DNA of 31,982 nucleotides from a virus (IMGVR_UViG_3300042898_004535:1-31982); one strand, 5' to 3'. Shown: positions 1,532 through 25,036, counted from the first letter of the stretch. Notes: generated by a model not told the origin, from the letters alone. Numbers and translations are program-made.

Positions 1532-1540
1532 TATTTATCT
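1532..1540 (-). promoter_or_regulatory. Candidate late promoter core before tail tube gene
   Basis: On the minus strand this reads AGATAAATA, 23 bases before the tail tube ATG at 1508. It matches seven of eight positions of the T4 late promoter core TATAAATA and resembles motifs in front of the sheath, the 851-residue structural protein and the 104-residue protein. Function is inferred from position and similarity only. Confidence 0.4.
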
Positions 1541-1569
1541 GCTTCTTTGCTGCTGCTAAAAATTCTAGG

Positions 1570-7634: not shown

Positions 7635-10190
7635 TTACTTTCTGTTAGCAAATTTAGGAAGCTTAAGCTTCGGTTGGGCATTATCTATAACGTGAGCCAG
7701 TTGAGCATCTCTAACGATGTTCTGGTTCAGAACTATAGATTGTTTATCTATATCTATCATCTGCTTAAACAATCTGATATTGCTGACAAACAGAGGTGAA
7801 GTCATCACCCGATAAGAATTGTTGTCAGTTCCGTAGTATGGACTATTTAGATCTGTGTTTAGATCAGGTTCTGCAGCAAATGTATAAGGAGTGGCTAGGG
7901 ATCTAACATACTCATGAATGTTGACCAGATTGCTAGACTGCTCCTGGGGGTTTGTTGGATCGTAGGACATCTCCCACATGTTGATCGCAACCTGTTTGTA
8001 CTTATTAGAAACGTTAACCACCATCGCATACCAATCTCCAAAGACTGGTGTAAACTGAAGAGGGGAGTTGATGATTAGATCATTGAGCACAACTTCAACA
8101 CTACCTACTCCCAGATAGCTAGAGTTTGCGGGCTCGTTGACCCCAGAATGTATAATGTCGATTCTAAATCCTTTTACCGATCCATTTGTGCTAACGTACA
8201 GCCCGTTTAAGAAGTTTCTAGCCTGAGCCTTCTGCATTCTCCAAGATGATCTGTTCTGAGCCATCGGCATGTTTGGATTGGCAACAGAGAACTGGAACTC
8301 GTTGATGACGGATCTAACTCTAAATCCACCGGTGTGGTTTGCATCCGCCGAGATGGCAACATATCCTTCTGGATTTTCCGAGTAGGACATCCAAGGCTGG
8401 AGGCCGTGGCGATACGGGTGGGTGCTGTAGACGATCTTGGTGTCGTCTTGAGAAACGACTGTGATAGGAAGAGAAGGGTATGCCCTCTTCGTCATCTTAG
8501 ATTGATCGAAGTAGTTTCTAATGTTGAACCAAGCAGTGTAAGCTAGCTCTCCGGCCTCTGTTAGAATAGGAAGGGTTCTGTACCTCAATGCTTGTCTGTA
8601 TTCCGCAGGATCGTAGATAAACTCCGGATTGTACTGGAAGGAGTCGTCCATATCGTAGTAGTGGTTGAACACTATCGTCCAGTTATTGTTTAGGTCGTAC
8701 CCAACAATCGGGAGGTCGTTGTAAATATAAGACCTGATTGGATCCGGATCTCTATTCTGTGTGCTGGTGACGTACTGCTGAGGCTTGGTCAACTTCTCCT
8801 CTTCTGCTACGGTCTCTGCTCCGAACAAGGTCTGGGAATTTAAAGCAATTCCGTCCAGCTGTTCTTTGTAGGCTGGATCGTTGAAGTAGGTGTTGGACTT
8901 CGGTTGATACTTCTTCAGTTCGATCTTAAAGTAGACCGGGGAGTACATAAAGTCTCTGAAGAGATACATCGAATTGATCTCGTATATTCTGTTGGTCAGA
9001 GGGAAGTAGATAATGTCTCTCTTTCTGGGCTGAGCACCTCTTCCAAAGAAGGACTCGAAGTAGATCTTATCAATATGGATCTCGAAGGGCTCTTCAAACT
9101 GAAGACCGAACGGGTCGAAGTTGATCTTGTTATCAGGGAACTGGTTCTGTGGAACCATCACCTTGACGCACTTCTCGTCAACAACGTCGTAGAGGGTAAA
9201 CTCTTTTAGGATCACGTCCTTAGATCTAGACTGGGCCTGAACCGAGTAGTAGTTTACCTCCCATCCGAACAGCTTATTCACGGAAAGACTTAGATCTTGA
9301 TATAGATTCAGAGCAGAATTAACTGCATAAGGGTTGAACGTTATTTGAGTACAGTCTGTATTAAAAACGACCGGACGGTTGCTTCTCTCTTCTGAGCAGG
9401 AAGGAACTGGATTTCTGATGATCTCGTTCGTTGGATCAAAAGGGAATGCGTAGGTCACATCCAGATTGAAGTCAATAATGATAACAGACGGAGAGATCGG
9501 CTGATCCCCCTGATAAGCTATCGTCCCATCATTGTTCTTGACGGTTGATGTGAATCTGAATTCGGGATAAAATGGCTGATCTGGATTTAGCTCGATAAGG
9601 AAAAGGTTGGACTTTTCGTTCGATGTGTTGGACTGGGAAATACCGGTGAGTGCCGTTCCAACGTTAGTCCAGAGGGACCAGGTTTCCCCGTCGACAGAAT
9701 ATCTAAAGTCAATAGAAATATCTTGGGTGTCTAGATCGACTGGATTGGAAGAAGTATTTAGACAATCGATGATCCATCCGTTTAGGGAAGAGACGTTGCG
9801 ATAGGGCTTGTCCCAGCTCAGAACCCTATAACTTCCTATGTAGGTAAAATTAAGTGCAGAATCAATCTGCTCCTTTCTAAGGGCAAGCCATTCTGCTCCG
9901 GTTACGTCAATATAGTTGTCTCCGCAGGGTGCATAGTAGTAGGCTGTTCCTCCTTCAGGATAGGGAATACCCTGAATGTGATATCCGTTACACCCAATCT
10001 GGGCTGCTCTGGCTAGAGCTCCTTCTACCGTTGTAAACAGATCGTTAGTTGAAGATGGCGGGGGCTTCGCAGTATTTGGGAGGTCGTCCGCATAGGCATA
10101 TCTCGGATCGGTAATGTCATACTGCTCACCGTTTCCGTTATAGACCGGCTGGCCTTCTTTGGGAAATCTATTTTCTGGGTAAAATGTCAT
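7635..10190 (-). CDS. Large virion structural protein, family not recognised
   Basis: This 851-residue protein is placed just upstream of gp16/gp17, where T4 keeps neck genes 13-15. It is rich in aromatic residues, Asn, Asp and Pro with alternating beta patterns and has no signal peptide, membrane segment or enzymatic motif that I can see, all typical of a virion component. The N-terminus has a compact region around residues 50-100 (GALARAAQIGCNGYHIQG, YYYAPCGDNYIDV). Two beta-sandwich-like stretches follow, near 150-250 (FRYSVDGETWSLWTNVGTAL) and 640-740 (GDWYAMVVNVSNKYKQVAIN), the latter reminiscent of lectin-like folds. A helical tail closes it (PLFVSNIRLFKQMIDIDKQS). It could be a neck, collar, baseplate or fibre protein; I cannot decide. 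Confidence 0.6.
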   Translation of the reverse strand: MTFYPENRFPKEGQPVYNGNGEQYDITDPRYAYADDLPNTAKPPPSSTNDLFTTVEGALARAAQIGCNGYHIQGIPYPEGGTAYYYAPCGDNYIDVTGAEWLALRKEQIDSALNFTYIGSYRVLSWDKPYRNVSSLNGWIIDCLNTSSNPVDLDTQDISIDFRYSVDGETWSLWTNVGTALTGISQSNTSNEKSNLFLIELNPDQPFYPEFRFTSTVKNNDGTIAYQGDQPISPSVIIIDFNLDVTYAFPFDPTNEIIRNPVPSCSEERSNRPVVFNTDCTQITFNPYAVNSALNLYQDLSLSVNKLFGWEVNYYSVQAQSRSKDVILKEFTLYDVVDEKCVKVMVPQNQFPDNKINFDPFGLQFEEPFEIHIDKIYFESFFGRGAQPRKRDIIYFPLTNRIYEINSMYLFRDFMYSPVYFKIELKKYQPKSNTYFNDPAYKEQLDGIALNSQTLFGAETVAEEEKLTKPQQYVTSTQNRDPDPIRSYIYNDLPIVGYDLNNNWTIVFNHYYDMDDSFQYNPEFIYDPAEYRQALRYRTLPILTEAGELAYTAWFNIRNYFDQSKMTKRAYPSLPITVVSQDDTKIVYSTHPYRHGLQPWMSYSENPEGYVAISADANHTGGFRVRSVINEFQFSVANPNMPMAQNRSSWRMQKAQARNFLNGLYVSTNGSVKGFRIDIIHSGVNEPANSSYLGVGSVEVVLNDLIINSPLQFTPVFGDWYAMVVNVSNKYKQVAINMWEMSYDPTNPQEQSSNLVNIHEYVRSLATPYTFAAEPDLNTDLNSPYYGTDNNSYRVMTSPLFVSNIRLFKQMIDIDKQSIVLNQNIVRDAQLAHVIDNAQPKLKLPKFANRK

Positions 10191-10279: not shown

Positions 10280-11257
10280 TTACAATTTCTCCAGCCAATA
10301 CTCGATCATCTCATCTATCATGGTTTCGAAAGTATAAGAAGGAGACCAGCCAGTTTCATTTCTCAACTTAGAAGAATCCCCCTTGAGGTCCTGGAGTTCT
10401 TCTGGTCTAAAATACTTATCTCTTTGTTCTAGGTGAGATGTCCAATCTAGATCAAGTTTACGGAATACGTACTCGACGAGTTCCTTTACACTATGGGAGG
10501 TTCCCATCGAACAAACATAATCTCCGGGATTGTCCATCTGGAGTATCATCCACATTGCCTTGACATAGTCTTTTGCGTGCCCCCAATCCCGGGTGGATTC
10601 TAGATTTCCTATGTAAAGTTTATCTTTAGTTCCTTTTTTTATTTCGACCGCAGTTTTTACAACTTTATTGGTGACAAAATTAATTCCTCTCCTAGGTGAT
10701 TCGTGATTAAATAAAATCCCATTAGAGATAAACATTCCATAGGAGTTCCTATAATTTCTAGATATGTTATAGGCAAAGACCTTAGAGCACCCATAGGGTG
10801 AAACTGGATCCATTGGGGTAGTTTCCCTCTGGTATCCATCCGAATCTATATTATTGCCAAACATCTCAGACGAGGAAGCTTGATAAACTTTTATCTTTGG
10901 ATTTACAACTCTCACTGCTTCTAACACATTAAGTGAGCCAATCCCGGTTGCATTTGCAGTATAAAGGGGTTGATCGAAGCTGATCCTTACATGGGATTGT
11001 GCTGCTAAGTTATAGATTTCGTCAGGATTACATTTTTGAATAACTCTCACCAGCGAGGACAGATCTGTTAGATCCGCATATTCTAAATTGTCCTTAATTC
11101 TGTCGTAATTTTTTTCTATCCTAGAGGTTTGATTTTCTGAGACAGAATTTCTCTTTATTGTTCCCCAGACGTCGTAATTTTTTTCTAGCAAAAATTCAGC
11201 AAGATAAGATCCATCCTGCCCATTAATTCCCGTTATTAGTGCTGTTTTCTTTTTCAT
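10280..11257 (-). CDS. gmd: GDP-mannose 4,6-dehydratase
   Basis: The enzyme converts GDP-D-mannose to GDP-4-keto-6-deoxy-D-mannose, the branch point to GDP-fucose, GDP-rhamnose, GDP-perosamine and related sugars. It is an extended short-chain dehydrogenase. Visible motifs are the NAD(P)-binding GINGQDGSY at 10-18, the active-site region SSSEMFG at 128-134, the YGCSK pair Tyr155/Lys159, and the substrate-binding NHESPRRG at 184-191, all hallmarks of Gmd. I start it at ATG 11257; a TTG one codon upstream is also possible. It overlaps the end of the preceding SDR gene by 35 bases, so the two are probably translationally coupled and act in one pathway. At 325 residues it is slightly shorter than most Gmd enzymes. 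Confidence 0.93.
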   Translation of the reverse strand: MKKKTALITGINGQDGSYLAEFLLEKNYDVWGTIKRNSVSENQTSRIEKNYDRIKDNLEYADLTDLSSLVRVIQKCNPDEIYNLAAQSHVRISFDQPLYTANATGIGSLNVLEAVRVVNPKIKVYQASSSEMFGNNIDSDGYQRETTPMDPVSPYGCSKVFAYNISRNYRNSYGMFISNGILFNHESPRRGINFVTNKVVKTAVEIKKGTKDKLYIGNLESTRDWGHAKDYVKAMWMILQMDNPGDYVCSMGTSHSVKELVEYVFRKLDLDWTSHLEQRDKYFRPEELQDLKGDSSKLRNETGWSPSYTFETMIDEMIEYWLEKL

Positions 11258-12050
11258 CAATTTTTCGATTTATATCATTTATAGTGTCCTCCATTAACCT
11301 AGAATAAGGGTAGAGAGGAAGTCTGCTCTTGAGGTAGTATTCATATTTTATCTCATATTCTCTGAAAGACTCTAAATTTTCTTTAACTAAGTCGTCATAA
11401 GATAAGTCGTATGCACTAAAAAGATCACGGATAAAGTCATTCACAAAGGTTAACCTACCGGATCCTATTATCTTGTGTTCAGATGCATTCAAAATTTCCT
11501 CTATTATAAATTTAGGATGGAAAAGGTCCCTGTAATAATAGGTATCCCCAATTTCCACCTCCTCTTTGTTTATGATGGAGTTAAATATCTTCCCGAAAAG
11601 AAAATCCTTGGATCTTTTTGTTGAGTTGAAATTAAAGGGGAATAGAATCACAACGTTAGAATACTTGTCATTATTGTCCAATATTCTTCTAGTCATCTCA
11701 AACTTAGACCTAGTATAATTAGTTTCATAGAATTCCATTGGGGTTTTTAAATCTATTCCACCGAAATGTTTGTTCCATAACTCGCACGTAGAAAAAACTA
11801 CTATTCTAGAACACTTATTCTTCAGAAAATCTAAGGTCTTAAAAGTTAGATCTATGTTTATTTTTTCGTATAGACTATATGGTTCTAAGTTTTTTCTATT
11901 CTCACCAAAAGCTAAAATAGCTAAATCCCATTTACCATCTATATCGGATTCAGAAAAATCCCTAGAGTTTACTTTTTTAAATTCGTGATCCGGTAGGAAA
12001 CTAGAGATCTGAGAAGTACTTCCAATTATGAGTTTTTTTTTCTGCTCCAC
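11223..12050 (-). CDS. SDR-family NDP-sugar epimerase/reductase-like protein
   Basis: This 275-residue protein has the outline of an extended SDR fold: an N-terminal beta-alpha start (KKLIIGSTSQISSF), a strand ending in FSTCELW and a YTRSK motif that fits the catalytic YxxxK. The glycine-rich loop is degenerate compared with GxxGxxG, and the middle is short, so its cofactor binding is uncertain. Next to gmd, the natural role would be to reduce or epimerise the GDP-4-keto-6-deoxy sugar, as Rmd or GDP-fucose synthase do, but I see no signature specific to either. The start is GTG at 12050. The C-terminal tail is highly charged (INRKIDEKENSTN) and overlaps the gmd start. Sugar specificity is unknown. 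Confidence 0.65.
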   Translation of the reverse strand: MEQKKKLIIGSTSQISSFLPDHEFKKVNSRDFSESDIDGKWDLAILAFGENRKNLEPYSLYEKINIDLTFKTLDFLKNKCSRIVVFSTCELWNKHFGGIDLKTPMEFYETNYTRSKFEMTRRILDNNDKYSNVVILFPFNFNSTKRSKDFLFGKIFNSIINKEEVEIGDTYYYRDLFHPKFIIEEILNASEHKIIGSGRLTFVNDFIRDLFSAYDLSYDDLVKENLESFREYEIKYEYYLKSRLPLYPYSRLMEDTINDINRKIDEKENSTNNGN

Positions 12051-12102
12051 GTTAGACTTGTATCTAAATTTTATCTATAATAATCTATCACCAATTTAAT
12101 TT

Positions 12103-12999
12103 TTATAGCCATTTATCTATTTGGGATATAACATCATCCACAGTTATCGATTTATGGCATTCAAATTGTCTTTCAGTGTTTTTATGCCTCGGGCACCAAT
12201 ACCAATCATCAGGATCGAACGAGTGCTCAATATCTATTTGGTTCCAACAGCCGTGGCAAACGGATTTGTTCGTTATCCGGATATAATCATCTAGAGATAA
12301 ATCAAACTCGTTACAGTCTTCGCTAAAATTAGATATCATAACAACTCTTTTACCTAATGCATGAGCCAGCCATGCCATCCCTGAATTTAGACCGATATAG
12401 AACTCGCTATGCTGAATTAATTGAAGAGATTCTAATAAATCAACACCAATTTTTTTATTGGATTTTGAAGGAACACCATTGAAAAATGGAGGGGTCCCAA
12501 ACAATTCGTCTCTTTCAACAGTTACCGGGGTGTAGCCGAGTTTCCTTAATCTACCAGAAAGATCATTCCAATTTGGTGTAGATGGCTGAGACTTAATACC
12601 TGTCGGATGGTTCCAATATCTAATTTGTCCAGTAGAATGAACACCTAGAATAATGTATTTATTTTTAATTGGTCGGGTTGAGTCAGAGATGGCAATTTCC
12701 GGCCTAATGTATGATGGATTCTCAAATCCCAGCTGTTCAGCAAAACCTCCTTGAACATTTTTACTAAAAATATATTTTAAAATTATTTGCTCGTCAAATT
12801 CAACAGTTGTTTTTTTATCAATGAAATTAATGTTTGTGTATACATTTTCTAAAAACGGAATTAAGCGGCCATTTATTTTATAGTAAATTTTACAGCCGTG
12901 TTTTTTCTGGTATTCTGAAACGTATGGGGTTGATGCGATGGTATCGCCAATAGAGGTTGATAGAATTTCTATTAAAATTGTTTTCATTGTAATAAGCAT
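12103..12999 (-). CDS. TibC/Aah-like O-heptosyltransferase (GT9-like), short form
   Basis: Members of the bacterial autotransporter heptosyltransferase group (TibC, Aah) transfer heptose from ADP-heptose to Ser residues on protein repeats. This 298-residue protein has the GT-B pattern of that group: STSIGDTIASTPYV near residues 14-27, SEFYIGLNSGMAWLAHALGK near 200-219 followed by VVMISNFSED. It ends with four cysteines in the spacing Cys248-x2-Cys251, Cys269 and Cys281 (CHGCWNQ, WYWCPRHK, FECHKSIT), like the iron-binding cysteine set known in TibC. It lacks the N-terminal beta-rich domain that its neighbour at 13630 carries. An internal ATG at 12987 (MKTILIEIL) is an equally good start. The actual sugar and acceptor are unknown; it could use another NDP-sugar. 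Confidence 0.8.
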   Translation of the reverse strand: MLITMKTILIEILSTSIGDTIASTPYVSEYQKKHGCKIYYKINGRLIPFLENVYTNINFIDKKTTVEFDEQIILKYIFSKNVQGGFAEQLGFENPSYIRPEIAISDSTRPIKNKYIILGVHSTGQIRYWNHPTGIKSQPSTPNWNDLSGRLRKLGYTPVTVERDELFGTPPFFNGVPSKSNKKIGVDLLESLQLIQHSEFYIGLNSGMAWLAHALGKRVVMISNFSEDCNEFDLSLDDYIRITNKSVCHGCWNQIDIEHSFDPDDWYWCPRHKNTERQFECHKSITVDDVISQIDKWL

Positions 13000-13012
13000 T
13001 ATATTCAGTTAA

Positions 13013-13630
13013 TTACCACATCAACCTATCAGAATAGTCTGTGTTTATAAATTCACTTTTTACACATAAGTACCAGCCAAAACTAAAGTAGGTTGAAATC
13101 ACTGTATAGCCATTTCTTTTTAGCATTTCAATTGATGATTTTGTCGCATCTGAATATTTAGGGTCCATCCAATCATGAAAGCTAATAATAATTTGATTTA
13201 TTTTAGAAAAATCGGATCCATCTAAACTGTCTAAAAAAGAGTATTCGGAACCTTCAATGTTGATTTTTAATATTGAGACTTTATCAATATTAAATTTTTT
13301 ACAAAAGGTTTTCCAAGATATCATTTCATATAAATTAACATCATCTTCGTTAATATTATAATTTACCACACCTTCTATTTCATTATTGTTTATCTTATCC
13401 ATTTTAATTTTACAGTCTAATGGACCTAAAACCCCGTTAAATAATTCAGCACCAATTGGTACCGTGGTTTCAAACGGATCAACCCCAATTACCCTCTTCA
13501 TACCAAACCAATAATTTGACCAATCCCAATACAAACACCCCAAATCAACAATACATCCTTCACTGTCAACGGAATTCCAATCGAATGTTGACCAGAATTC
13601 TCCTTTTATTGTTTCTTGTAATTTAAGCAT
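13013..13630 (-). CDS. FkbM-like SAM-dependent methyltransferase
   Basis: This 205-residue protein resembles FkbM methyltransferases, which commonly O-methylate sugars. Motif I is present as IVDLGC at 27-32, the second strand ends in GVDPFE at 49-54, and the family-typical acidic motif appears as LKINIEGSEY at 121-130, with a later strand FHDWMDP. The start codon overlaps the stop of the upstream heptosyltransferase-like gene by one base (TAATG), implying coupled translation, and another such gene follows after 13 bases. The likely job is methyl capping of a sugar added by its neighbours. Motif I is less glycine-rich than usual (DLGCLYWDW), so activity should be regarded as probable rather than certain. 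Confidence 0.75.
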   Translation of the reverse strand: MLKLQETIKGEFWSTFDWNSVDSEGCIVDLGCLYWDWSNYWFGMKRVIGVDPFETTVPIGAELFNGVLGPLDCKIKMDKINNNEIEGVVNYNINEDDVNLYEMISWKTFCKKFNIDKVSILKINIEGSEYSFLDSLDGSDFSKINQIIISFHDWMDPKYSDATKSSIEMLKRNGYTVISTYFSFGWYLCVKSEFINTDYSDRLMW

Positions 13631-14886
13631 TATAATAAATTTTTTATTTGTTCGATTACCATTTCTGGTGTTATTGATTTATGGCATTCAAATTGTCTAT
13701 CAGTCCCTTTGTGTGCTGGACACCAATACCAATCACCTTTATCAAACTTAAAGTTGGGGTTATTCCAGCATCCATTACATACTAAAGGATTGGTTATTCT
13801 CGTAGTATTATCGGTGAATTCGTGGCCGTCTTCAGAAAAATTAGAAATCATAACGACGTGTTTGTTAACCGCCCATGCTAACCAGCTTAATCCAGATCCT
13901 AACCCAATATAAAATTCGGAATGATAAATTTGACTCATCCTTTCTTGTAATGGTTTATTTCCCGTCCAATCTAAAGCATTTTCAATACCCGAGAATTCCT
14001 CCTTTTGGATGACAGCAACCTTATACCCCAAATTATTTAGATGATTTATCAAGGTTTGCCATCCATTGGGATGCGACCATTCTTTACATCCAGCGGTTGT
14101 GCTCATACCAATTGTTATGTATTTTTCTTCAATAGGTCTTGGTCCTGGGATAAATGATAATTTAGGTCTTATTTCTGAAAAATCTAAACCCAGAATATTT
14201 GTTGCAGCTTTTTGTAAAGGTATCGTATTTGGCTCTTCGGGTTCTTTGTCTTTATCATAAAACCACCCAAGCCTATATAAAGCTTTAATATCTGATACCA
14301 CAACACCCCTATCAACAAATTCAATCTCCGGATATTGGCCTTCAAAAATCGAGTTCATAAAACTAGAAACAATAACATGACAATTATGTTTTTTCCTAAA
14401 TTCTTCACAATATGGCATCCAAGCAAGGGTATCCCCCAATGAACTTGATTCAAAAACAATAAACACTCTACTATTTTCTAGATCAAATTCGTGCTCAAAA
14501 GACAAATTGTCCGAGCTAAACTTAGTTTTCCATTTAGTGTAATATCCTCTATTCAGTTTAGCATACATCCCAGACGATAATTCGGTTTTAAAGATTAAAT
14601 TTTCCCCGTGGTCAAAAAATTCTACCAGGAAATTTTCTACCGAGTTGGTTTTTAATTCGAGGAAATATCCATCCACATTGTTTGAGTTGACCCCTATTGT
14701 TAGCGGGGGTTTATATTCATCTCCAAATGCTTCAATATGCATTTTTTTATATTCTTCCCCCGTCGGAGAGGATAAATTATATTCTTTACCGTTAATATTA
14801 ATCACGTTCGAAGTATCTCTCATATCCAATTTTATTTTTTTATAATTACTGGGGTTTTCTAAATACAGAAATGCAATCCACTCCAT
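13630..14886 (-). CDS. TibC/Aah-like O-heptosyltransferase, full-length form
   Basis: This 418-residue protein is the full-length version of the TibC/Aah type (TibC is about 406 residues). An N-terminal beta-rich domain (about 60-135) is followed by VFIVFESSSLGDTLAWMPY at 141-159, the nucleotide-sugar GT-B fold with SEFYIGLGSGLSWLAWA, then ISNFSED, and the four-cysteine set Cys370, Cys373, Cys389, Cys401 (CNGCWNN, WYWCPAHK, FECHKSIT). This arrangement strongly suggests a protein O-glycosyltransferase acting on Ser/Thr in repetitive beta or fibrous proteins. The ATG at 14886 overlaps the preceding methyltransferase by 41 bases; an internal ATG at 14823 would remove the overlap. No heptose synthesis genes are visible, so the donor would come from the host or be a different sugar. 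Confidence 0.86.
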   Translation of the reverse strand: MEWIAFLYLENPSNYKKIKLDMRDTSNVININGKEYNLSSPTGEEYKKMHIEAFGDEYKPPLTIGVNSNNVDGYFLELKTNSVENFLVEFFDHGENLIFKTELSSGMYAKLNRGYYTKWKTKFSSDNLSFEHEFDLENSRVFIVFESSSLGDTLAWMPYCEEFRKKHNCHVIVSSFMNSIFEGQYPEIEFVDRGVVVSDIKALYRLGWFYDKDKEPEEPNTIPLQKAATNILGLDFSEIRPKLSFIPGPRPIEEKYITIGMSTTAGCKEWSHPNGWQTLINHLNNLGYKVAVIQKEEFSGIENALDWTGNKPLQERMSQIYHSEFYIGLGSGLSWLAWAVNKHVVMISNFSEDGHEFTDNTTRITNPLVCNGCWNNPNFKFDKGDWYWCPAHKGTDRQFECHKSITPEMVIEQIKNLL

Positions 14887-15493
14887 TCCAAGAATTTATT
14901 GGGTTAAAATGTATGGGATTTTGCGAGATAATTTCCATGTTGTTATTCTCAACAAACTCTTTAAATTGCTCAGGTGACATGTTTGCTCTTCCTGCGGAAT
15001 TTTTAAAAGAGTTCTCGTTACCCGCGTAAATCCAAGAGTGATGAATAAAAGAATATCCGCCAGGTTTTAATACCCTATAAATTTCTTTAATGTACTCCTC
15101 CGTTACATTTGAGTGCATATGAACGAAAGAGTCATAGGAGAAAACTAGGTCTTGGGAATTATTCCTAACTCCCTTTAACGATTTACCGTCGTTAAGAAGG
15201 TAAGCTAAAACATGATGACCCAGTTTTTCTTTTGTTTTTTGGATGCAGAGTGGGTTTAAATCAATTACAATGAGTTCACCGGCTAAGATCGAAAGAAATT
15301 GGGTCATCCTTCCAAACCCAGGTGCAATTTCTAGTATTTTTTTTCCTCTAAATTCTTTCACGACATCAAAAATTTCTTTATTCCATAAATTTTCTGTCGT
15401 TCCAAACGGAACTGACCATTCGTGTCCACCCTCCGCCCACATGTGAGGTTCATTCCATAGCCTTTGCTCTTCTATATTGTAAAATTTTTCCAT
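14846..15493 (-). CDS. Class I SAM-dependent methyltransferase
   Basis: A 215-residue Rossmann methyltransferase. Motif I is ILEIAPGFGR at 53-62, the acidic end of strand two is IDLN at 77-80, motif IV-like residues are DLVFSYDSFVHMHSN near 115-129, and the post-motif VLKPGGYSFIHHSW at 141-154 is typical of Methyltransf_11/25-type enzymes that modify small molecules or sugars. It overlaps the next gene, a heptosyltransferase-like protein, and sits inside the sugar cassette, so a sugar O-methyltransferase is the natural reading. It is not of the FkbM type used elsewhere in the cassette. The substrate cannot be read from sequence. A 209-base gap containing a gene remnant lies upstream. Confidence 0.8.
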   Translation of the reverse strand: MEKFYNIEEQRLWNEPHMWAEGGHEWSVPFGTTENLWNKEIFDVVKEFRGKKILEIAPGFGRMTQFLSILAGELIVIDLNPLCIQKTKEKLGHHVLAYLLNDGKSLKGVRNNSQDLVFSYDSFVHMHSNVTEEYIKEIYRVLKPGGYSFIHHSWIYAGNENSFKNSAGRANMSPEQFKEFVENNNMEIISQNPIHFNPINSWNGVDCISVFRKPQ

Positions 15494-15552
15494 TTCATTA
15501 GAAATTATATTTTTTATATTTTATCATATCTTCAAATGCGGGTAAGAATGAA

Positions 15553-15696
15553 CTAAAATCCAGAGGATTTTAACAATTTTCGAGACACCGAGTTCAAGTA
15601 CAGGTTTTTATTATACCGATAATAACCATGAAGTTTCAAAAGAATCCCCACAAATTCGCCAATCGATTTATCCAGTATATTAAGAGTTAGAGGTAT
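15553..15696 (-). pseudogene. Gene remnant after the GT4-like gene (in-frame, no start)
   Basis: The largest gap in the cassette (15494-15702) contains 47 sense codons that read like real protein (SIGEFVGILLKLHGYY, then LNSVSRKLLKSSGF) and end in TAG. It has no ATG. It is in the same frame as the upstream glycosyltransferase gene and is separated from its TAA stop only by one codon and a TGA. It may be the old C-terminus of that gene, or the tail end of another gene lost by recombination. The rest of the gap is A+T-rich and I see nothing else in it. Confidence 0.35.
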
Positions 15697-15702
15697 TCAA
15701 AA

Positions 15703-17385
15703 TTAATTAATATCTTTTTCTAGGTAGTCTAAAACAGAATATCCTTCTTTTTGATACACTAGCTTTTCCTTGCTAACTAGTATTTTGGATTTCATGTTAT
15801 AGTTCCACGCTAACCAAAAATCCGGTGAGTGCCATCCGGTATTCAGAATGTTATATGACATATTTTCTCTTTCCGATTTCATAATTAGATAAGTAGTTCC
15901 CATCAAGAAATGTGGTACTTCTAACCAGTCCCCGTGGTCTTTCGTCATATTCCACCATTCTCCCCCGGTCATGTAACACGGTCCAGCAAAACTAATCAAT
16001 TTAGCATTTATTCTGAGGGAGAGATTATATGCGTCTATTATGCTAGCATAAAATTCATCCGGAGATAAATCGGTGAACGAGTCTCCTTCAGCAATAATTA
16101 ACATGTCAACATCCTCACTAAAATTCTCATATATCCCTTGTGTGTGTGCTTTATATGCACCGTAGTGTCCATAGGTTAAAACTGGGGGCTCGTTCTTAAA
16201 TTCCTTAGAAGGGTTTATAATAGAAGGGTCTTTACAGTTTTCGACAGGTAGTTCAGTTCTATTGACGACAGAATATCTTTTCACGTACGATGTAAACTTA
16301 TGTTCCATGTTTTCCCAACACTGGATCGATAAATTCTGTTTTTCGATTGTTGACTTCCAATTGGATTCCAAAATATCCTGCGGTTCATTTGGGTCTAGTA
16401 ATAAATGGACAACTTTGATATTAAGATTTTTTTCTTTCATGGGTTCAAACCCGAGAGAAATTAGAAGTTGATTTGCATCTTCTCTTGCTTCCCCTGTTAA
16501 AAAGATAACATTTTCTTCGTTGTCATATTTTCCTTTATAGGTGTGCAGATTAAAAATAAAAGTAGGTAAACTATACTCAAGAGACTCTTTAATTGCTAAA
16601 GGGTTTAATTCCATATTGGAAGTAAATAGATGGACATCAGAAGCCTGGAGAAAGGTATCAGTGTCATTTCTTTCCCCCCAAACAATACAGTTATCTGGCT
16701 TTGTATCAATTATGGGCTCCCAATAGTCCGCAAAATTTGAAGCCTGGTTGCCCAGAAAGTGAAATTTAATTTTATAATCCTGCAGCAATCTAGCAATCTC
16801 AAATGCATACCCCTGATTTTTACCCCGAGTAAATAGTCCTATGTTCACAACGTGTTTATAATCAGGGTCTAATCCTAAGGTGGATTGAGATAGGGATTTA
16901 CCTGGTATTTTTTTATCAATTGGATATTCAATCAAATCAAAAGGTACACCGGTATCTTTAAATGTTTCACAGCTAAACGGGGACACAAATATAAATTTAT
17001 CCGGCATAAATTTTTTCCACTCGACTCTTGAATGAGAACTATGAGTGGTTTCAAAAATTTTATAGCTTCTGCTAGATGAATATAGTCTTTTAATAATATG
17101 GTGATCCATGAAAGTCTCTGGGAATTCCTCAATAAAAATGTGATCTGGGTTATAATCTTCAATAGCATTAAATAAATCATACTCTTTATTCTCTGACAAG
17201 GATATAAATTTATCTCCGATCATCTCAATTACTCGATTCCTCTGGACAACATAAGACCACGCCAGCATTTCATATTCGATGACAATAACGTTATAGAAGT
17301 CTTTTAATAGTTCTACTTTTTTTGCAACCACTTGCGGACATCCTCCTGTCGACATATGCGGTGATATAATCATCAATGTTTTCAT
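15703..17385 (-). CDS. Two-domain glycosyltransferase (GT4-like plus second GT-like domain)
   Basis: The N-terminal half (about residues 1-330) resembles GT-B enzymes of family GT4: MKTLMIISPHMSTGGCPQVV, then a strand-rich acceptor domain, HVVNIGLFTRGKNQGYAFEI at the start of the donor domain, and DVHLFTSNMELNPLAIKESL where the EX7E-type motif is expected (E-x7-E visible). The C-terminal half (about 390-560) is separate: YGHYGAYKAHTQGIYENF, DMLIIAEGDSFTDLSPDEF and HSPDFWLAWNY, which looks like a GT-A-type domain similar in style to GT25, though I am not certain. I start it at ATG 17385; a TTG at 17430 would add 15 residues but overlaps the upstream gene by 29 bases. One protein would then add two sugars in sequence. 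Confidence 0.75.
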   Translation of the reverse strand: MKTLMIISPHMSTGGCPQVVAKKVELLKDFYNVIVIEYEMLAWSYVVQRNRVIEMIGDKFISLSENKEYDLFNAIEDYNPDHIFIEEFPETFMDHHIIKRLYSSSRSYKIFETTHSSHSRVEWKKFMPDKFIFVSPFSCETFKDTGVPFDLIEYPIDKKIPGKSLSQSTLGLDPDYKHVVNIGLFTRGKNQGYAFEIARLLQDYKIKFHFLGNQASNFADYWEPIIDTKPDNCIVWGERNDTDTFLQASDVHLFTSNMELNPLAIKESLEYSLPTFIFNLHTYKGKYDNEENVIFLTGEAREDANQLLISLGFEPMKEKNLNIKVVHLLLDPNEPQDILESNWKSTIEKQNLSIQCWENMEHKFTSYVKRYSVVNRTELPVENCKDPSIINPSKEFKNEPPVLTYGHYGAYKAHTQGIYENFSEDVDMLIIAEGDSFTDLSPDEFYASIIDAYNLSLRINAKLISFAGPCYMTGGEWWNMTKDHGDWLEVPHFLMGTTYLIMKSERENMSYNILNTGWHSPDFWLAWNYNMKSKILVSKEKLVYQKEGYSVLDYLEKDIN

Positions 17386-17401
17386 CCTTGATCTAAAAAA
17401 A

Positions 17402-18043
17402 TTAGGGTCTCCAAATTCCAATTCCTCCAAAATGTTCTTTTAGATTCTTGTCATAGGGAACATACCCCTTCCCGTTCGATTTTTGACATATGATCTCGAC
17501 CTTTGTTCCATAATTTAGCTCTTCCCAGAATCTTCTTACCTTTCCTGTCGTAGGCTCATCGGGGCTATAGATATTTCTAAATACATGATCAGGATCTATA
17601 TCATGGAAACCAATGTAACCCCGTGGACTTAACAATTCTTTATACAGTTCAAAATCTCTTTTTACCCCTTCGTAATTATGGTCTCCGTCAATAAAGATAA
17701 AATCAAATTGGGGACAAATACTTTTAACCTTTTCGAAGGTTTCTATAGATTGAGAGTTCCCGCACAAAAAATGAAAATCCTCACCCATCATAGAAAGATA
17801 TATGCTATCTTTAAATGCTTTATCAATATCTACAGCTATTTTTGTACCCGTTGAAACCTCATTAAATAATAAAAAAGTACCACCTCTTGCACCTATTTCT
17901 AAGATGTTATGAGGCTTTAGGCTATTTAAAAAATGCCCAAGATGGACAAGTTCCTCGTATACCTGTATAGTTACATTTCTGTCTATTAGATCTTTTTCTA
18001 AAATGTAATCTGCGATTTCTTCGATCGATAAATTTTTTCTCAT
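17402..18043 (-). CDS. Class I methyltransferase (Methyltransf_24 / CmcI-like)
   Basis: A 213-residue Rossmann methyltransferase. Motif I is ILEIGARGG at 47-55, strand two ends VDID at 71-74, and the strongest signature is DFIFIDGDHNYEGV at 114-127 followed by LSPRGYIGFHDI near 138-149, typical of Methyltransf_24 and of the cephalosporin hydroxylase-like (CmcI) methyltransferases found in many polysaccharide clusters. The His and Asp in GDH and FHDI could bind a metal ion, as in related enzymes. It begins six bases after the upstream glycosyltransferase and is followed 16 bases later by the two-domain glycosyltransferase. A sugar-modifying role is inferred from this context. Confidence 0.8.
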   Translation of the reverse strand: MRKNLSIEEIADYILEKDLIDRNVTIQVYEELVHLGHFLNSLKPHNILEIGARGGTFLLFNEVSTGTKIAVDIDKAFKDSIYLSMMGEDFHFLCGNSQSIETFEKVKSICPQFDFIFIDGDHNYEGVKRDFELYKELLSPRGYIGFHDIDPDHVFRNIYSPDEPTTGKVRRFWEELNYGTKVEIICQKSNGKGYVPYDKNLKEHFGGIGIWRP

Positions 18044-18049
18044 TTTTAA

Positions 18050-19219: not shown

Positions 19220-19235
19220 AACTTAAATAATATTT

Positions 19236-20126
19236 CTAAGATAGGAAAGCAAAGGAATTCCAGTAGTCATATTTTACTACGTAGCCATTTGAATTTAGCC
19301 AATCGAAAAGTTTATCAATACGAGTCGAATCCCCGGTTCTTTCTTCAGAAAAATTAATGGTCTCGAATACAATAAGCTTTGGTTTCTTTATAAAGGAAAA
19401 GTCCAGTCCCATTATGATTTCATCGTCAATTGCTTCGGTGTCTAGATGAATCCAATCTAGGGTATTTTGTAAATTTTCCTGAACGATTAAATCATTAACC
19501 CCAAGAGTTTTAGTGAGAATTATGTTAGATAAGTCCTGGGTAAATACGTGTTTTTCGTAATGTTCTTTACTCACAGTATTTGCGTGGCCAGAGCCAAATT
19601 CGAAAAATTCAGTTTCCCTACCGTCTGAAGTTATAATTTCTTTCCTAAATTTAACATTATTAAACCCTTCATAATTAGATTTAAGTTCATTAAATTGTTT
19701 TTCTGATGCTTCAACTAATATAACGTTTACCCGATTATTTTTAACGTGTTTAACCCATTCACCACTTGTACCATCGTGGGTACCGATAACAATACCACTT
19801 GAATTTGGGTTTTTCATTACCCAGGTATCAAAAAATTGCTCGGTTGAATTTCTATTAACCCACATATCTAATTTGAAATGTGATATTATATTATCTTTTG
19901 AGTCTTTAATCAATGCTTGTAACTCATCGGATTCTAAACAGTCCCAGCTTGCCCAACCGTTAGGTAATAAATTATTACTCCATGCTAATTTATTCTTAAC
20001 CCAGACTTCAAAAATAAAGGGTAATTCATTTTCTTTGTATATCCAACTAGCCTCATCAAATATTTGTGCAAATATTTGACCATTTGGATGCTCTCTACTT
20101 TTTTCAACGTATCTGATACTAAACAT
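19236..20126 (-). CDS. FkbM-family methyltransferase with N-terminal beta domain
   Basis: Residues 100-296 form an FkbM-type methyltransferase: motif I IVIGTHDGTSG at 112-122, strand two with LVEAS at 137-141, FKNI-like region VKFRKEIIT at 158-166, and the family-typical acidic motif DWIHLDTEAIDDEI at 224-237. FkbM enzymes O-methylate sugars in many glycan clusters. The first 90 residues are a separate module (PFIFEVWVKNKLAW, NNLLPNGWASWDCL) that resembles beta-rich modules in two TibC-like proteins of this cassette. The gene starts three bases after the upstream GT34-like gene ends. The unusual TEAID in place of VEGxE is a variation within this family, not an obvious inactivation. Confidence 0.82.
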   Translation of the reverse strand: MFSIRYVEKSREHPNGQIFAQIFDEASWIYKENELPFIFEVWVKNKLAWSNNLLPNGWASWDCLESDELQALIKDSKDNIISHFKLDMWVNRNSTEQFFDTWVMKNPNSSGIVIGTHDGTSGEWVKHVKNNRVNVILVEASEKQFNELKSNYEGFNNVKFRKEIITSDGRETEFFEFGSGHANTVSKEHYEKHVFTQDLSNIILTKTLGVNDLIVQENLQNTLDWIHLDTEAIDDEIIMGLDFSFIKKPKLIVFETINFSEERTGDSTRIDKLFDWLNSNGYVVKYDYWNSFAFLS

Positions 20127-20129
20127 AGC

Positions 20130-20819
20130 TTATTTTAGAATATTTTTTATTCTTTCGAGTTTGGTTAAAGTATTCCCTCCGGCGTGATAAACATAATTTA
20201 TTACACCGTCTTCAAAATATCTATGGTATGAATACGGTATAATTTTGATATTGTTTAATATAATAGGGATTTCTATATCATCAACCAATTTATTAAAAAT
20301 ATTTTCTCCCCCCGGTAAATAAAATAAATCCTGGAGAAGTTCGTCCAGCCTTGTTTGTTCATGGAAAGAACCAAATCTATAGTGACCGGGATTACTCCAA
20401 AGATTATTTAATAGATTAAGCGACCACTCGCTATTTTTCCATATCATAAATCCTGTGGTAGTATTAGTCCAGACGTTACCCGTCAATTTGTCCATTTCTA
20501 ATTTGGGTAAAATTAGATCAATGCCATCTTGAACGAAATTTTCAATCTTTACATCTTTGTTTACGAAAACTGCATCAGCATCAATCCAAACCACATAGTC
20601 GAACAGAGGTAATGTTTTTATTAAAATATCTATCTTTATCCAGGTTGGGTGCCAATCTAAATAATCGAGATCTCTTACAATTTGTTTTAAGTAAGAATAC
20701 CCATGTTTATTTGCATAATCTAAATGGTTGGTCGATGCTAAATCCCCATAATCGCATTTACCATAATCACCCCACCTTATTTTGTCGGTGTATGATGTTA
20801 GAATACATATTTTATCCAT
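20130..20819 (-). CDS. GT34-like galactosyl/mannosyltransferase (GMA12/MNN10 type)
   Basis: This 229-residue protein matches the outline of the GMA12/MNN10 group: NHLDYANKHGYSY near 31-43, WHPTWIKIDILIKTLPLFDY near 56-75, the metal-binding motif VWIDADAVFVN with Asp80-Ala-Asp82, NTTTGFMIWKNSEWSLNLL, then FHEQTRLDELL and a terminal YHAGGNTL. In fungi and plants this group adds galactose, mannose or xylose; here the sugar is unknown. It is a compact single-domain enzyme without a membrane anchor. The start overlaps the stop of the upstream GT2 gene by one base (TAATG), so the two are likely made together. Confidence 0.8.
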   Translation of the reverse strand: MDKICILTSYTDKIRWGDYGKCDYGDLASTNHLDYANKHGYSYLKQIVRDLDYLDWHPTWIKIDILIKTLPLFDYVVWIDADAVFVNKDVKIENFVQDGIDLILPKLEMDKLTGNVWTNTTTGFMIWKNSEWSLNLLNNLWSNPGHYRFGSFHEQTRLDELLQDLFYLPGGENIFNKLVDDIEIPIILNNIKIIPYSYHRYFEDGVINYVYHAGGNTLTKLERIKNILK

Positions 20820-21967
20820 TAATTATTAATAATAAAATGTCTTATATATGTCCACCAGCCATAGTTTGTGTATTTCCCAATGATATTACGATAGTAATCT
20901 AACTGTGTTTGTAATTCTCTATCCTTCTTATCGTTGTCGGAATGAAATTTTTGATTTTGGTAGTAGAACAACATTTTTTTACTACCTACCTTATCTAATA
21001 TTTTTTCTAGATCGGTATCATTAAAGAAATTTAGGGCAAATATATGGGTATCAGCATTTTCATTATTAAAAGTTAAATCTGAATCCGAATACAGTTTTGT
21101 TAGTTTTTGTTTTTGTGTTTCTGATAGAGGTCTTGTCCACAAAGAAACCTTCTTATTTTTTAAACTACCGATTTCACAAGAGCCTAGCGAGCAGGTTTCT
21201 AAATAAATTTCATTAAAAAAAGTATCAACCCCATAATCGCTGTTTTTTAATTTGCTTAATGACATTTCAAAATTACCATTAAAATTAGGAGGGACTGACT
21301 TAGCATGTGATTCTGAATCATCCCTCAAAAACCAAAAATATAGAGGTCTTGGTATGTGCAGGTACTTACCGTGTGAATTCGACCAAAATACATGATAACT
21401 ATCCTCAGCACATGCCAGCATGTCGTCGACATCAAAAGAAGGTATGGTATTTTTGAAACCTCTTAAATGACCAAAACAACTGTACGATACATTATTTAAG
21501 TAGTCACAACTTGGGTGGTATTTTAATATTTTGTCAGTAATTTTATCCTCATTTATAACATAGGAAATTGAATGTAGGGAATTAGATCTTTCGTTTACTT
21601 TAAAGAAATCAGAGGAAACTAAAGAAACGTCATCTCTATTCTCTAGGAAATCATTATACACTGAAAGAAAATTATAATCAAAATCATCATCAGCATCGAC
21701 CAATATTATCCAATCAAACGTGTCATCAAAAAAGAGATTTGGCTTCCAGTACATTTGTTTTTTCTCGGTCTGTTCGCAATACAAAATTTTATGCTTAATT
21801 GGACTTTTTTCTATCCTATTTAAAATTGATTGTCTTGTATTATCAGAGGAATAATCATCAGTAATGTGCCACTCAAAATCTTCGTAAGATATAGATTCTA
21901 TTGACGAGAATATTTTATCAATAAATCTCTCACAGTTATAAAAAGTTGTATAAATTCCAAATTTCAT
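20819..21967 (-). CDS. GT2-family glycosyltransferase with C-terminal extension
   Basis: The first 240 residues are a GT2 (GT-A) glycosyltransferase: YTTFYNCERFIDKIFSSI at 6-23, HITDDYSSDNT at 34-44 for nucleotide binding, and WIILVDADDDF at 86-96 with the DXD-type metal site. A likely catalytic acidic patch is DDMLACAEDSYHVFW near 180-195, and RPLYFWFLRDDSESHAKS around 208-225 resembles the GT2 lid. The last 140 residues are a separate module (KKVSLWTRPLSETQKQKL, ADTHIFALNFFNDTDLEKIL) ending in a helical tail with YYRNIIGKYTNYGWW. I do not recognise that module. It begins one base after the large fusion gene upstream. Confidence 0.84.
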   Translation of the reverse strand: MKFGIYTTFYNCERFIDKIFSSIESISYEDFEWHITDDYSSDNTRQSILNRIEKSPIKHKILYCEQTEKKQMYWKPNLFFDDTFDWIILVDADDDFDYNFLSVYNDFLENRDDVSLVSSDFFKVNERSNSLHSISYVINEDKITDKILKYHPSCDYLNNVSYSCFGHLRGFKNTIPSFDVDDMLACAEDSYHVFWSNSHGKYLHIPRPLYFWFLRDDSESHAKSVPPNFNGNFEMSLSKLKNSDYGVDTFFNEIYLETCSLGSCEIGSLKNKKVSLWTRPLSETQKQKLTKLYSDSDLTFNNENADTHIFALNFFNDTDLEKILDKVGSKKMLFYYQNQKFHSDNDKKDRELQTQLDYYRNIIGKYTNYGWWTYIRHFIINN

Positions 21968-21968
21968 A

Positions 21969-23876
21969 TTATTTTATTTTTATTACTGAAGATGAGAATG
22001 CAAAAAGTATGTTACCTTTACTGTGAATTTCAAAATTATTTTCGGCTAAAACATTTCTAATGTAAGTATCAATATAGTCAGAATGAGTCTCTATAACCAT
22101 CTTACCAATTCTATTTAAATTTTCAGGTTTTATACTTTCGAAAATATCTAACTCAGCACCTTCGCAGTCAACCTTTAATAGGTCAATATATGATCCAACA
22201 GATTCTATCAAATTATTAATATCTATTGTTTTAACCAATAATTTTCCACCATCATTATTAAAAATATCGTTGTAATCCGATAAACAATTAGTTGCCGAAC
22301 AGCCTGGATTTATGGACATGTACAAATCTTCCGACTTTGAAGAAACCGCTTTATTTATCGGTACGATATTAAAATCTTTTGATAGGCTAACAACATTTTC
22401 AAATGCTTGCGGAAAAGGTTCAACACAATAAATTTTATTAGCTCCATTTTCCAATGCATACAAAGCAAAGAAGCCAAAATTTGCTCCAACGTCTAATACC
22501 TGGTCTCCCTTATCTACGATGCTTTTACCGTTAATGACATATTCCTCATGAATGAATATTTCCCAAAAAGTTGAGTAATTATAATCGTCAAATTTATCCA
22601 GATAAAACTCTTTATCTTTAACTATAAACTTTTTACCTCCTGGGATCTTTAATAAATATTCCCCTTTATATTCATCACCAATAAATAGTTTAAGTATAAT
22701 ATCTCCTAGATTTTTTAATCTACCTGGACTCGGTGCCCACCAATAATTACCTGAATCTAGTCTTTTACACGTTCCCTCCCATTTATCTCTTTTCAGTCCG
22801 GTATTAACATCAATCGCTTCAATTTTTACATCCAAATCCAGAGATATTTTAAAGTTAAAATCTATTCTATTCTCATCAGATTCAAAAAATTCTATATAGT
22901 CAGTAAATAATTTTGTATTTTCTATAGCTAAAATATTTTTTACCTTTTCAATAACCTGAGGGACAAATGGATGGCACTCGAAGGTTGGTTTGTTTTCTAG
23001 ACAATTTGGTTGGGGTGGTACAGAATTAATGTCCCCCCATTCCTTTATGTTATAGAATAAATTAGAATTACAGAATAAATCACAGGTACCCTCCAAATAA
23101 TGGTATTTGTAATCTTGTCTGCCATTTCTATACGGAGCTCTGAGTTTTGGATTAATTGCACTTCCAAGCTGAATAATTTCAACATCTGTTGTTCCTGCTA
23201 AATGAAGAGGCCCAGAGTCCATAGTGATTAAACATTGTGACCTATTAATAACCCACCACATATCACTTATACTTCCTCTGTTTGTTAAATCTAATCCATA
23301 GTAGTCATCAAACATCGGGCAATCTTTTTCTAGAGATCCACTACTATAGGATCTGTGAAGTTCTTCTTTGTAACCAGCACCAACTAGTACAGTAAATATG
23401 TTATTTTCTTTTAGCCATTTAATTAAAGCAACCCAATTATTATAGCCCCAGGTACGATTTGGCCAATTTGTTGTTACGTGTAAAACAACATACTTTCCAG
23501 GCAATTCAATATCTAGGGAAAGAGGGTCTGGGAAGAAATCGTAATATAACTCTTCATTTGGTAATTGAAATCCCAAATCCATGGAATGGATTTGTCTGGA
23601 ATCTATATGCGAAAATTTCTTTTCGATCCCATTATTATCTTTTCTCCCTGCAAAAGTAAAACTTTCATATCTTACTATTTCATCTAGAGTAAGATTATTA
23701 AACTCCGAAAAACTAAATGTATTTTGGACATAGGGATTATTTCCAAAAACATCCTTTTTGTGGGTAACGATGTTTATTTTTTGTCCGTGGGATTTTGACA
23801 GATATCTAAGGGTTGGAGTTGATGCTAGCGTATCTCCAAAACTATTACTGTGAACTAAATAGTAAATTTCTTTCAT
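21969..23876 (-). CDS. Fusion: TibC/GT9-like glycosyltransferase plus FkbM methyltransferase
   Basis: Two enzymes are joined in 635 residues. Residues 1-320 are GT9/TibC-like: LVHSNSFGDTLASTPTLRYL, VVLHVTTNWPNRTWGY near 130-145, CLITMDSGPLHLAGT near 215-229, and a cysteine set Cys265, Cys269, Cys292, Cys301 (CDLFC, NCLENK, FECHPF) like its two cassette relatives. Residues 330-445 form a beta-rich linker domain. Residues 455-635 are an FkbM methyltransferase: VLDVGANFGFF at 460-470, YCVEPFPQA at 483-491, LLKVDCEGAEL at 566-576. Adding a sugar and methylating it could be coupled in one chain. It is the first gene of the cassette, 53 bases after the coiled-coil gene. Confidence 0.87.
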   Translation of the reverse strand: MKEIYYLVHSNSFGDTLASTPTLRYLSKSHGQKINIVTHKKDVFGNNPYVQNTFSFSEFNNLTLDEIVRYESFTFAGRKDNNGIEKKFSHIDSRQIHSMDLGFQLPNEELYYDFFPDPLSLDIELPGKYVVLHVTTNWPNRTWGYNNWVALIKWLKENNIFTVLVGAGYKEELHRSYSSGSLEKDCPMFDDYYGLDLTNRGSISDMWWVINRSQCLITMDSGPLHLAGTTDVEIIQLGSAINPKLRAPYRNGRQDYKYHYLEGTCDLFCNSNLFYNIKEWGDINSVPPQPNCLENKPTFECHPFVPQVIEKVKNILAIENTKLFTDYIEFFESDENRIDFNFKISLDLDVKIEAIDVNTGLKRDKWEGTCKRLDSGNYWWAPSPGRLKNLGDIILKLFIGDEYKGEYLLKIPGGKKFIVKDKEFYLDKFDDYNYSTFWEIFIHEEYVINGKSIVDKGDQVLDVGANFGFFALYALENGANKIYCVEPFPQAFENVVSLSKDFNIVPINKAVSSKSEDLYMSINPGCSATNCLSDYNDIFNNDGGKLLVKTIDINNLIESVGSYIDLLKVDCEGAELDIFESIKPENLNRIGKMVIETHSDYIDTYIRNVLAENNFEIHSKGNILFAFSSSVIKIK

Positions 23877-23929: not shown

Positions 23930-24205
23930 TTAGGACTTAGGGCTATACATCCCGGTATTAAAATCTAAATCACCGTCTCCATACTTCTCAACCGTCTCTT
24001 TAACTAGTCTGTCCTCTTCCATGCTTAGATTTTCGGACTCCTCGTAAGCGTGGATTAGGTCTTCCTGGACTGTCTTTAATTCTAATTCAATAAAGTGTCT
24101 CTTGATGTTTAGTCTTCCTATCGACTCGACGTTTGCTCTGATTTTTTCTCTCAGAATTAGAATGTTGTCTAGTTCTTCCTGGGTTAATTTAGTAGATTCT
24201 GCCAT
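23930..24205 (-). CDS. Small coiled-coil protein, function unknown
   Basis: A 91-residue acidic protein, nearly all helix-forming from residue 8 to 75, with regular hydrophobic spacing (LDNILILREKIRANVESI, FIELELKTVQEDLIHAYEES) that suggests a coiled coil. It ends with a short non-helical tail GDLDFNTGMYSPKS. No catalytic or DNA-binding motif is visible. It stands alone between the terminator after the LamG gene and the sugar cassette. A chaperone, assembly or virion role is possible, but nothing in the sequence decides. Upstream on the minus strand are AT-rich elements (AGATAGATA at 24218-24226 and GAATAAATG at 24233-24241) that loosely resemble the late promoter-like motif seen elsewhere. 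Confidence 0.7.
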   Translation of the reverse strand: MAESTKLTQEELDNILILREKIRANVESIGRLNIKRHFIELELKTVQEDLIHAYEESENLSMEEDRLVKETVEKYGDGDLDFNTGMYSPKS

Positions 24206-24307: not shown

Positions 24308-25036
24308 TTATAGCCCGTATCTAGCCTTGTCCGTATCAAACATCTCAGCTATAACTGACGTGCTTAAAGATTTCCCTTTATAGTATCTGAATTGTCCCCA
24401 AGTCATTGGGAGATATCCAGATCCTGTATTGAAGTCTCTACCTATCTCCAAATTAGAGGTTCCGGATAAACTCTGGCTAGGTGTGCTCAAAGAAAGTACC
24501 GGGGAGGAATTATCATCGACGTAGATCTTAGAAGTTCCTCCGACGATAACAGTGGTAATCATAGTCCAGGTATCTGCAGTAAAAGCTCCAGTAGAGCTAG
24601 GTCCTTTGCTGTCATAACCAGACCCATTGACCCCCAAATAGAATGCTTCTGAGGTATATGCTAGAAGTCTTATTCCGTCGTAAGAAGGTGCTTCGAACTC
24701 TTTGTTCCAGATCCCTTCGTTAGCAGAGTACCCCGATCCAATTTTAGCCCAGATAACAATCGATATAGGAGAAGAAATATTACTAAAATTAATAGAAGAA
24801 TTTTGGGTAACCGATACTAAGCTGTTAGTTCCTCCCATCACGATAGTTCCCCCGTTTGACGAGGAGTATGACCAGTCTCCACTTAGCGTCCCGTCGTTAT
24901 TATTTCCGGAAATATCGTTTATCGAAGTTCCAGATCCAGAGTAGCAAGCAGGGTCTCCAATATCAAAATATAAAGTAGCATCTGGTATTGGTGGGGGACC
25001 AGATGTCTTGATAAAAGACATAGGATAAACTATCAT
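24308..25036 (-). CDS. LamG/concanavalin-like virion protein, probable fibre or receptor-binding
   Basis: Of 242 residues, about 20-240 form a LamG-like jelly-roll domain: DATLYFDIGDPACYSGSG, then DISGNNNDGTLSG, a hydrophobic SPISIVIWAKIGSG strand, WTMITTVIVGGTSKIYVDD and NLEIGRDF ending WGQFRYYKGKSLS. This domain binds carbohydrate or protein in many phage fibres and bacterial surface proteins. It is four bases after the collagen-like fibre gene and is closed by a strong terminator, so both are probably made on one late transcript and may act together at the tail tip or capsid surface. Gly, Ser and Thr are abundant. No signal peptide is convincing. Whether it binds host receptor or its own glycosylated neighbour is unknown. 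Confidence 0.75.
   Translation of the reverse strand: MIVYPMSFIKTSGPPPIPDATLYFDIGDPACYSGSGTSINDISGNNNDGTLSGDWSYSSSNGGTIVMGGTNSLVSVTQNSSINFSNISSPISIVIWAKIGSGYSANEGIWNKEFEAPSYDGIRLLAYTSEAFYLGVNGSGYDSKGPSSTGAFTADTWTMITTVIVGGTSKIYVDDNSSPVLSLSTPSQSLSGTSNLEIGRDFNTGSGYLPMTWGQFRYYKGKSLSTSVIAEMFDTDKARYGL

Follow-up and report, generated by a model that had tools for sequence, protein, structure and literature searches.

Two TibC-like glycosyltransferases of a T4-like phage and their probable link to collagen-like Gly-[Ser/Thr]-[Ser/Thr] proteins

A sugar cassette of a T4-like tailed phage was found to encode two proteins, W418 and W298, that belong to the TibC/Aah group of glycosyltransferases and not to the lipid-acting GT9 enzymes. 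On the basis of sequence features and gene neighborhoods, both are probably protein O-glycosyltransferases of a thumbless branch of TibC-like enzymes, which would use collagen-like Gly-[Ser/Thr]-[Ser/Thr] domains as acceptors and decorate the tail fiber of the phage. Gene pairing makes these repeats the most likely acceptor.

The stretch of DNA analyzed here, referred to as the window, comprises 31,982 bases, a fragment taken from a virus record, and carries genes for a tail tube, tail sheath, T4-type terminase, and neck protein, as well as recombination genes; all window features given below with coordinates lie on the minus strand. Between the neck gene (head closure Hc2; 7635..10190; PHROG 679, 1e-9; Pfam T4_neck-protein, 2.5e-5, just under its cut-off) and fiber-type genes is a cassette of sugar and methyl enzymes (10280-23876), with a GC content mostly of 0.30-0.36 compared to 0.39-0.47 in the flanks. 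It begins with a GDP-mannose 4,6-dehydratase-like (gmd-like) gene (10280..11260; Pfam, 9e-118; TIGR01472, 392 bits against a cut-off of 415), adjoined by an uncharacterized gene with no family match (11223..12050), for whose product a sugar-nucleotide reductase is a guess. Next in coordinate order are W298 (12103..12999, 298 aa), an FkbM-type methyltransferase (13013..13630; Pfam Methyltransf_21, 1.9e-7), a 79% identical counterpart of which adjoins the TibC gene in viral locus L007, and W418 (13630..14886, 418 aa). The remainder comprises a class I SAM methyltransferase (14846..15493; Pfam Methyltransf_11, 8.5e-14), a GT4-type glycosyltransferase (15703..17430; Pfam Glycos_transf_1, 1.5e-6), a Methyltransf_24/RMNT_CmcI methyltransferase (17402..18043; Pfam, 1.1e-13), one protein with no family match but a homologue in the cassette of L005 (18050..19219), one with no Pfam match (19236..20126), a GT34-like glycosyltransferase (20130..20819; Pfam Glyco_transf_34, 2.3e-11), a GT2 glycosyltransferase (20819..21967; Pfam Glycos_transf_2, 1e-10), and a GT9 domain fused to an FkbM methyltransferase (21969..23876; Pfam Glyco_transf_9, 6.7e-9, and Methyltransf_21, 6.8e-10). 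This last product, a third GT9-type protein that the original prediction did not mention, has in its GT9 domain a Cys-rich C..C..C..FEC tail with FECHPF, resembling a variant iron finger; a TIGR04414 search gave no match to it, and its best PDB match was weak (3tov, 0.027). Beyond the cassette are genes for a small 91-aa protein (23930..24205), a concanavalin A-like (Laminin_G_3) virion-type protein (24308..25036; Pfam, 4.6e-7), and a tail-fiber-type protein combining Mtd_N with a collagen triple-helix repeat (25040..25885; Pfam Mtd_N, 9e-12, and Collagen, 1e-16).

The original prediction, which described two TibC/Aah-like proteins with shared motifs, one full-length and the other lacking the N-terminal domain, was borne out. 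W418 matched the family model TIGR04414 (hepto_Aah_TibC) at 6e-91 (305 bits, cut-off 200), and W298 matched it marginally at 6e-61 (206 bits, 199.9 for the domain alone). In sequence searches of the PDB, TibC was the only significant match of either protein (1.7e-57 and 3.3e-36, respectively). Both reading frames exist with the motifs as quoted, namely SGLSWLAWA, ISNFSED, and CNGCW..WYWCPAHK..FECHKSIT in W418 and SGMAWLAHA, ISNFSED, and CHGCW..WYWCPRHK..FECHKSIT in W298. The lipopolysaccharide heptosyltransferase model TIGR02193 gave 15.5 and 19.1 bits for the two proteins, against a cut-off of 185. AlphaFold models were then compared with TibC, a check that had been proposed at the outset. 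The W418 model (pLDDT 79.9, with the iron-finger loop 375-384 below 50) aligned with TibC residues 21-387, including the N-terminal beta-barrel (Z 35.2, rmsd 2.9, 349 residues aligned), and the W298 model (pLDDT 89.6) aligned with residues 89-387 (Z 30.7, rmsd 2.4, 281 aligned); the start of W298 corresponds to about TibC residue 97, so that the barrel is absent. The next GT9 structures in the fold comparison, for which Foldseek was also run, reached Z 20-21. The lipopolysaccharide heptosyltransferases WaaC and WaaF (GT9) share the GT-B core with W418 and W298 but have neither iron finger nor barrel, with Z about 18-20 compared to 31-35 for TibC. Chance similarity and a lipid-acting GT9 identity were thus ruled out by family, PDB, and fold comparison, and a placement among lipid-acting GT9 enzymes with no BAHT match was not seen.

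Residue roles follow the 2014 eLife paper on the structure of TibC, the BAHT of enterotoxigenic Escherichia coli (ETEC; PDB 4rap/4rb4; PMC4358343). By alignment, the catalytic Asp D110 of TibC corresponds to D152 of W418 and D19 of W298, and its iron-finger cysteines (339, 342, 358, and 370) correspond to C370/373/389/401 and C248/251/269/281, so that the four cysteines of the predicted iron motif are kept in both proteins. All four donor-site residues of TibC (T226, K230, R286, and W305), including the phosphate-binding Thr/Lys, are kept in W418. W298 retains T226 and W305 but carries Arg for K230, Ser for R286, the adenine-contacting Arg of TibC, and Asn for P300; R286 and the barrel are therefore shared by TibC with W418 only. 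The thumb of W418 is 8 residues shorter than that of TibC (13 versus 21), and the thumb of W298 has the TibC length (21) with a hydrophobic tip, PFF. Relative to canonical BAHTs, W418 is without the thumb and W298 without the barrel, R286, and K230, and both retain the catalytic and cysteine residues. TibC dimers are built by the barrel and iron finger and joined into a dodecamer by the beta-hairpin thumb, and activity is abolished by deletion of 80-95 N-terminal residues or by mutation of the thumb tip (PMC4358343). Because TibC requires both thumb and barrel, W418 (thumbless) and W298 (barrel-less) must have modes of action other than that of TibC. The true start of W418 is probably at 14823 rather than 14886, since close homologues begin there, residues 1-24 of the model are of low confidence, and this start removes the overlap with the gene upstream.

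W298 is maintained under purifying selection, with pN of 0.19-0.25 compared to a near-saturated pS of 0.75-0.84. A viral scan with W298 as sole query returned no relative, and its orthologues turned up at other loci (L003, L004, and L110), where the adjacent pair of W418-type and W298-type genes is conserved; together the four proteins make up one clade, set on a long branch within the viral portion of the tree. W298 is a second copy that has diverged fast and has an altered donor pocket; it probably serves as a second O-transferase that uses another donor or is complexed with W418. A different role, which we regard as tentative and which is compatible with the favored explanation for W418, is that W298 is not catalytic alone and is a regulatory or structural partner in a hetero-oligomer. 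The complementary loss, in which W418 would contribute the barrel and W298 the thumb, fits this role, as do the dimer and dodecamer contacts of TibC and the conserved gene pair; however, W298 keeps D110, T226, W305, and the four cysteines and is under purifying selection, and the W418 type occurs alone in most phages.

Relatives were collected by viral scans, which gave 18 close loci first and then at least 572 candidates, and by a genome scan, which gave 284 cellular relatives. In a tree of 94 domains, W418 and W298 grouped within a branch of 42 domains, all viral (SH-aLRT 97), and the TibC/autotransporter clade stood apart (35 rows, support 100). D110 and W305 were invariant in a survey that covered 80 viral and 98 cellular domains, and the four iron-finger cysteines were present in 80/80 viral and 97/98 cellular domains, the one exception being gapped. 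The thumb is shortened in 71 of the 80 viral domains; cellular members mostly keep the full-length thumb (87/98) and R286 (91/98). Although Arg was seen at this position in just 3/80 viral domains of this first sample, a virus-wide loss of R286 was ruled out, as neck-linked viral relatives keep it in 28/31 cases; the loss is confined to a fusion branch and the W298 type. The autotransporter heptosyltransferases, Aah and BimC among them, fall under the same family model as W418 and W298. The original assignment to the autotransporter heptosyltransferase group stands in so far as the family is TibC/Aah and a protein acceptor is likely; it reaches neither to heptose as the sugar nor to an autotransporter-like acceptor. 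Family scans of the window, a part of an incomplete genome, found no autotransporter partner and a collagen-like fiber instead. W418 and W298 also differ from TibC in being phage-encoded members of a separate viral clade. Two further patterns were noted among the relatives. Negativicutes and their relatives have tandem full-length TibC-like genes, often with an overlap of about 10 bp, whose products may form hetero-oligomers (L043, L051, L052, L056, L062, L063, L077, L079, L088, L096, and L098), and TibC-like genes occur in two megaphages (L495, LR756501, 735 kb; L496, LR756504, 636 kb), with a Gly-Ser/Thr repeat protein about 5 kb from the gene in L495.

The original prediction had tied the enzymes to no particular acceptor class. 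On bacterial chromosomes, a Gly-[ST]-[ST] repeat protein was encoded near the enzyme at 10 of the 11 short-thumb loci, and the eleventh (L021) matched under a looser repeat pattern, giving 11/11. No such neighbor was found at any of 69 full-thumb (canonical) loci (0/69; p = 6.7e-12 for the contrast). The repeat partners lie 8-1116 bp from the enzyme gene, and most are small and, on visual inspection, have a signal peptide or lipobox. A later genome found with the enzyme as sole query (L493) has a repeat gene 108 bp away. Loci in which the enzyme is accompanied by a small, apparently exported (Gly-Thr-Ser)n protein are L023 (from Methylobacter), L024, L025, L026, L027, L028, L029, L030, L031, and L493. 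An origin of these pairs in prophages was set aside, as the surroundings of L023, L025, L026, L030, and L031 look chromosomal by eye. The bacterial pairs look like an undescribed glycoprotein system.

A corresponding pairing was seen in viruses. The tail-fiber-type protein of the window has 39 G-X-Y triplets with Ser/Thr at 68 of the 78 X/Y positions, and its gene is about 10 kb from that of W418 and does not adjoin it. When viral records were scored for at least 5 consecutive Gly-[ST]-[ST] codon triplets, repeats were present in 42/50 TibC records compared to 0/50 neutral records, the latter being picked by an arbitrary 14-base word, shorter than the TibC records, and not lineage-matched. In the reverse direction, TIGR04414 was matched in 14/50 repeat-picked records compared to 0/50 neutral records (p = 4e-5); the viral contigs are akin to one another and fragmentary, so these co-occurrence counts are not independent. 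The 8/50 TibC records in which no repeat was found, which may be fragments, include close relatives of the window (L004, L007, L101, and L110), and L241 has repeats but no TibC within its 50-kb record. Long repeat proteins adjoining viral TibC genes match tail-fiber families, with composition accounting for part of the similarity. In Mel-JY01, a Microcystis phage in culture, an FkbM-TibC fusion is encoded close to the terminase, and the adjoining reading frame contains about 600 residues of such repeats. Positions 2-3052 (+) of the Mel-JY01 record (L494) form an open frame of 1016 aa with abundant Gly-Ser/Thr repeats; the annotation instead places two minus-strand hypothetical genes and one short plus-strand gene there, probably in error.

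Viral TibC domains usually reside within larger proteins with GT4, GT2, or FkbM domains (GT4/GT2-TibC-FkbM fusions), and 80 of 93 viral reading frames with the domain exceed 500 aa. A protein similar to the GT4 enzyme of the window was present in 84/90 viral TibC loci, mostly adjacent or fused to TibC. Loci were also anchored on related terminases of 68-99% identity, with several contigs near-identical and hence fewer independent cases. Of the 51 such loci with enough sequence, 44 have TibC upstream of the neck gene, mostly 40-73 bp apart, and preceded by a GT4 gene and by the small 91-aa gene, which marks the upstream end of this GT4-TibC module; of 8 records without TibC at the neck site, 3 have it elsewhere. 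The window looks like an expanded form of this conserved module in the virion gene block. The position beside the neck gene in most related phages would also fit a reading in which W418 and W298 were true heptosyltransferases of beta-structured acceptors (strand-loop-strand, AIDA-I/TibA type) in another virion protein, and the repeats were bystanders. TIGR04414 is named for such acceptors, and the adenine contact R286 is kept in W418. We judge this reading distinctly unlikely, because the Gly-[ST]-[ST] pairing recurs on bacterial chromosomes and is absent at canonical full-thumb loci. The candidate acceptors here would be the neck, sheath, or lectin-like protein, with the repeats merely coming from the same phage lineages.

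The same gene order bears on the possibility that the cassette remodels host surface polysaccharide for superinfection exclusion or receptor masking, with the TibC-like enzymes acting on a glycan or lipid carrier. Pelagimyophage glycosyltransferases have been interpreted so in print (PMC7029224), and a gmd-like gene along with many glycosyltransferases in the cassette would suit such a function. W418 and W298, however, fall in the protein-acting TibC family, the genes of their relatives immediately precede the neck gene within the virion module, the pairing with repeat proteins occurs in bacteria too, and no flippase, polymerase, or other membrane step was found among the cassette proteins scanned; a host-surface role is, in our estimation, rather unlikely.

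Under the favored explanation of fiber glycosylation, W418 would start each glycan by attaching a sugar to Ser/Thr in the (GTS/GSS)n part of the fiber (25040-25885), the neighboring GT4, GT2, GT34-like, and GT9-FkbM enzymes would extend the glycan, and the cassette methyltransferases would cap it. W298 may act as a second O-transferase with another donor or in complex with W418; we infer both the order of steps and this role. Host ADP-heptose may be the donor of W418, in which R286, the residue contacting adenine in TibC, is retained. W298 has lost this contact, and a GDP-deoxysugar, for which there is the gmd-like gene in the cassette, is a guess. Among 50 viral TibC records, rfaE domain II was above cut-off in none and gmd was present in one, which rules out that phages generally make their own ADP-heptose or GDP-sugars.

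Glycosylation of phage virions is known already, and so are collagen-like proteins that carry sugars. In mycobacteriophages, glycans are reportedly carried on the capsid and on tail-tube C-termini (Freeman et al. 2023, cited in PMC12619734); that system likewise places sugars on virion proteins. BclA of Bacillus and C. difficile and mimivirus collagen are glycosylated collagen-like proteins (PMC8968730), with sugars on Gly-X-Y repeats as proposed for the fiber of the window. Compared to TibC, the partner here would be a collagen-like repeat protein and not an autotransporter, and viral relatives carry GT4/FkbM fusions. Neither a phage TibC nor a link between heptosyltransferases and collagen-like repeats was found in the open literature searched; what appears new relative to that literature is a thumbless TibC branch, carried by phages, whose pairing with Gly-[ST]-[ST] proteins is seen in phages and bacteria alike.

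Overall, we lean toward an undescribed type of O-glycosylation of collagen-like Gly-[Ser/Thr]-[Ser/Thr] domains, common to bacteria and widespread large aquatic phages and carried out by TibC-related, thumbless enzymes. If so, bacteria would have the enzyme with an adjacent, apparently exported repeat protein, and phages would have it among the virion genes, in many cases as a fusion with GT4 and FkbM domains. Phage genomes commonly carry glycosyltransferases, which are usually explained as modifiers of DNA or of the host surface; here there is a family-level reason to consider protein, together with a concrete virion acceptor. Such a system would explain what many collagen-like, Ser/Thr-rich phage fibers carry and would tie a bacterial protein-glycosylation family to virion decoration. 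It also raises the question of how TibC chemistry proceeds without the dodecamer, and since the cultured phage Mel-JY01 carries the enzyme-repeat pair, the matter is testable now.
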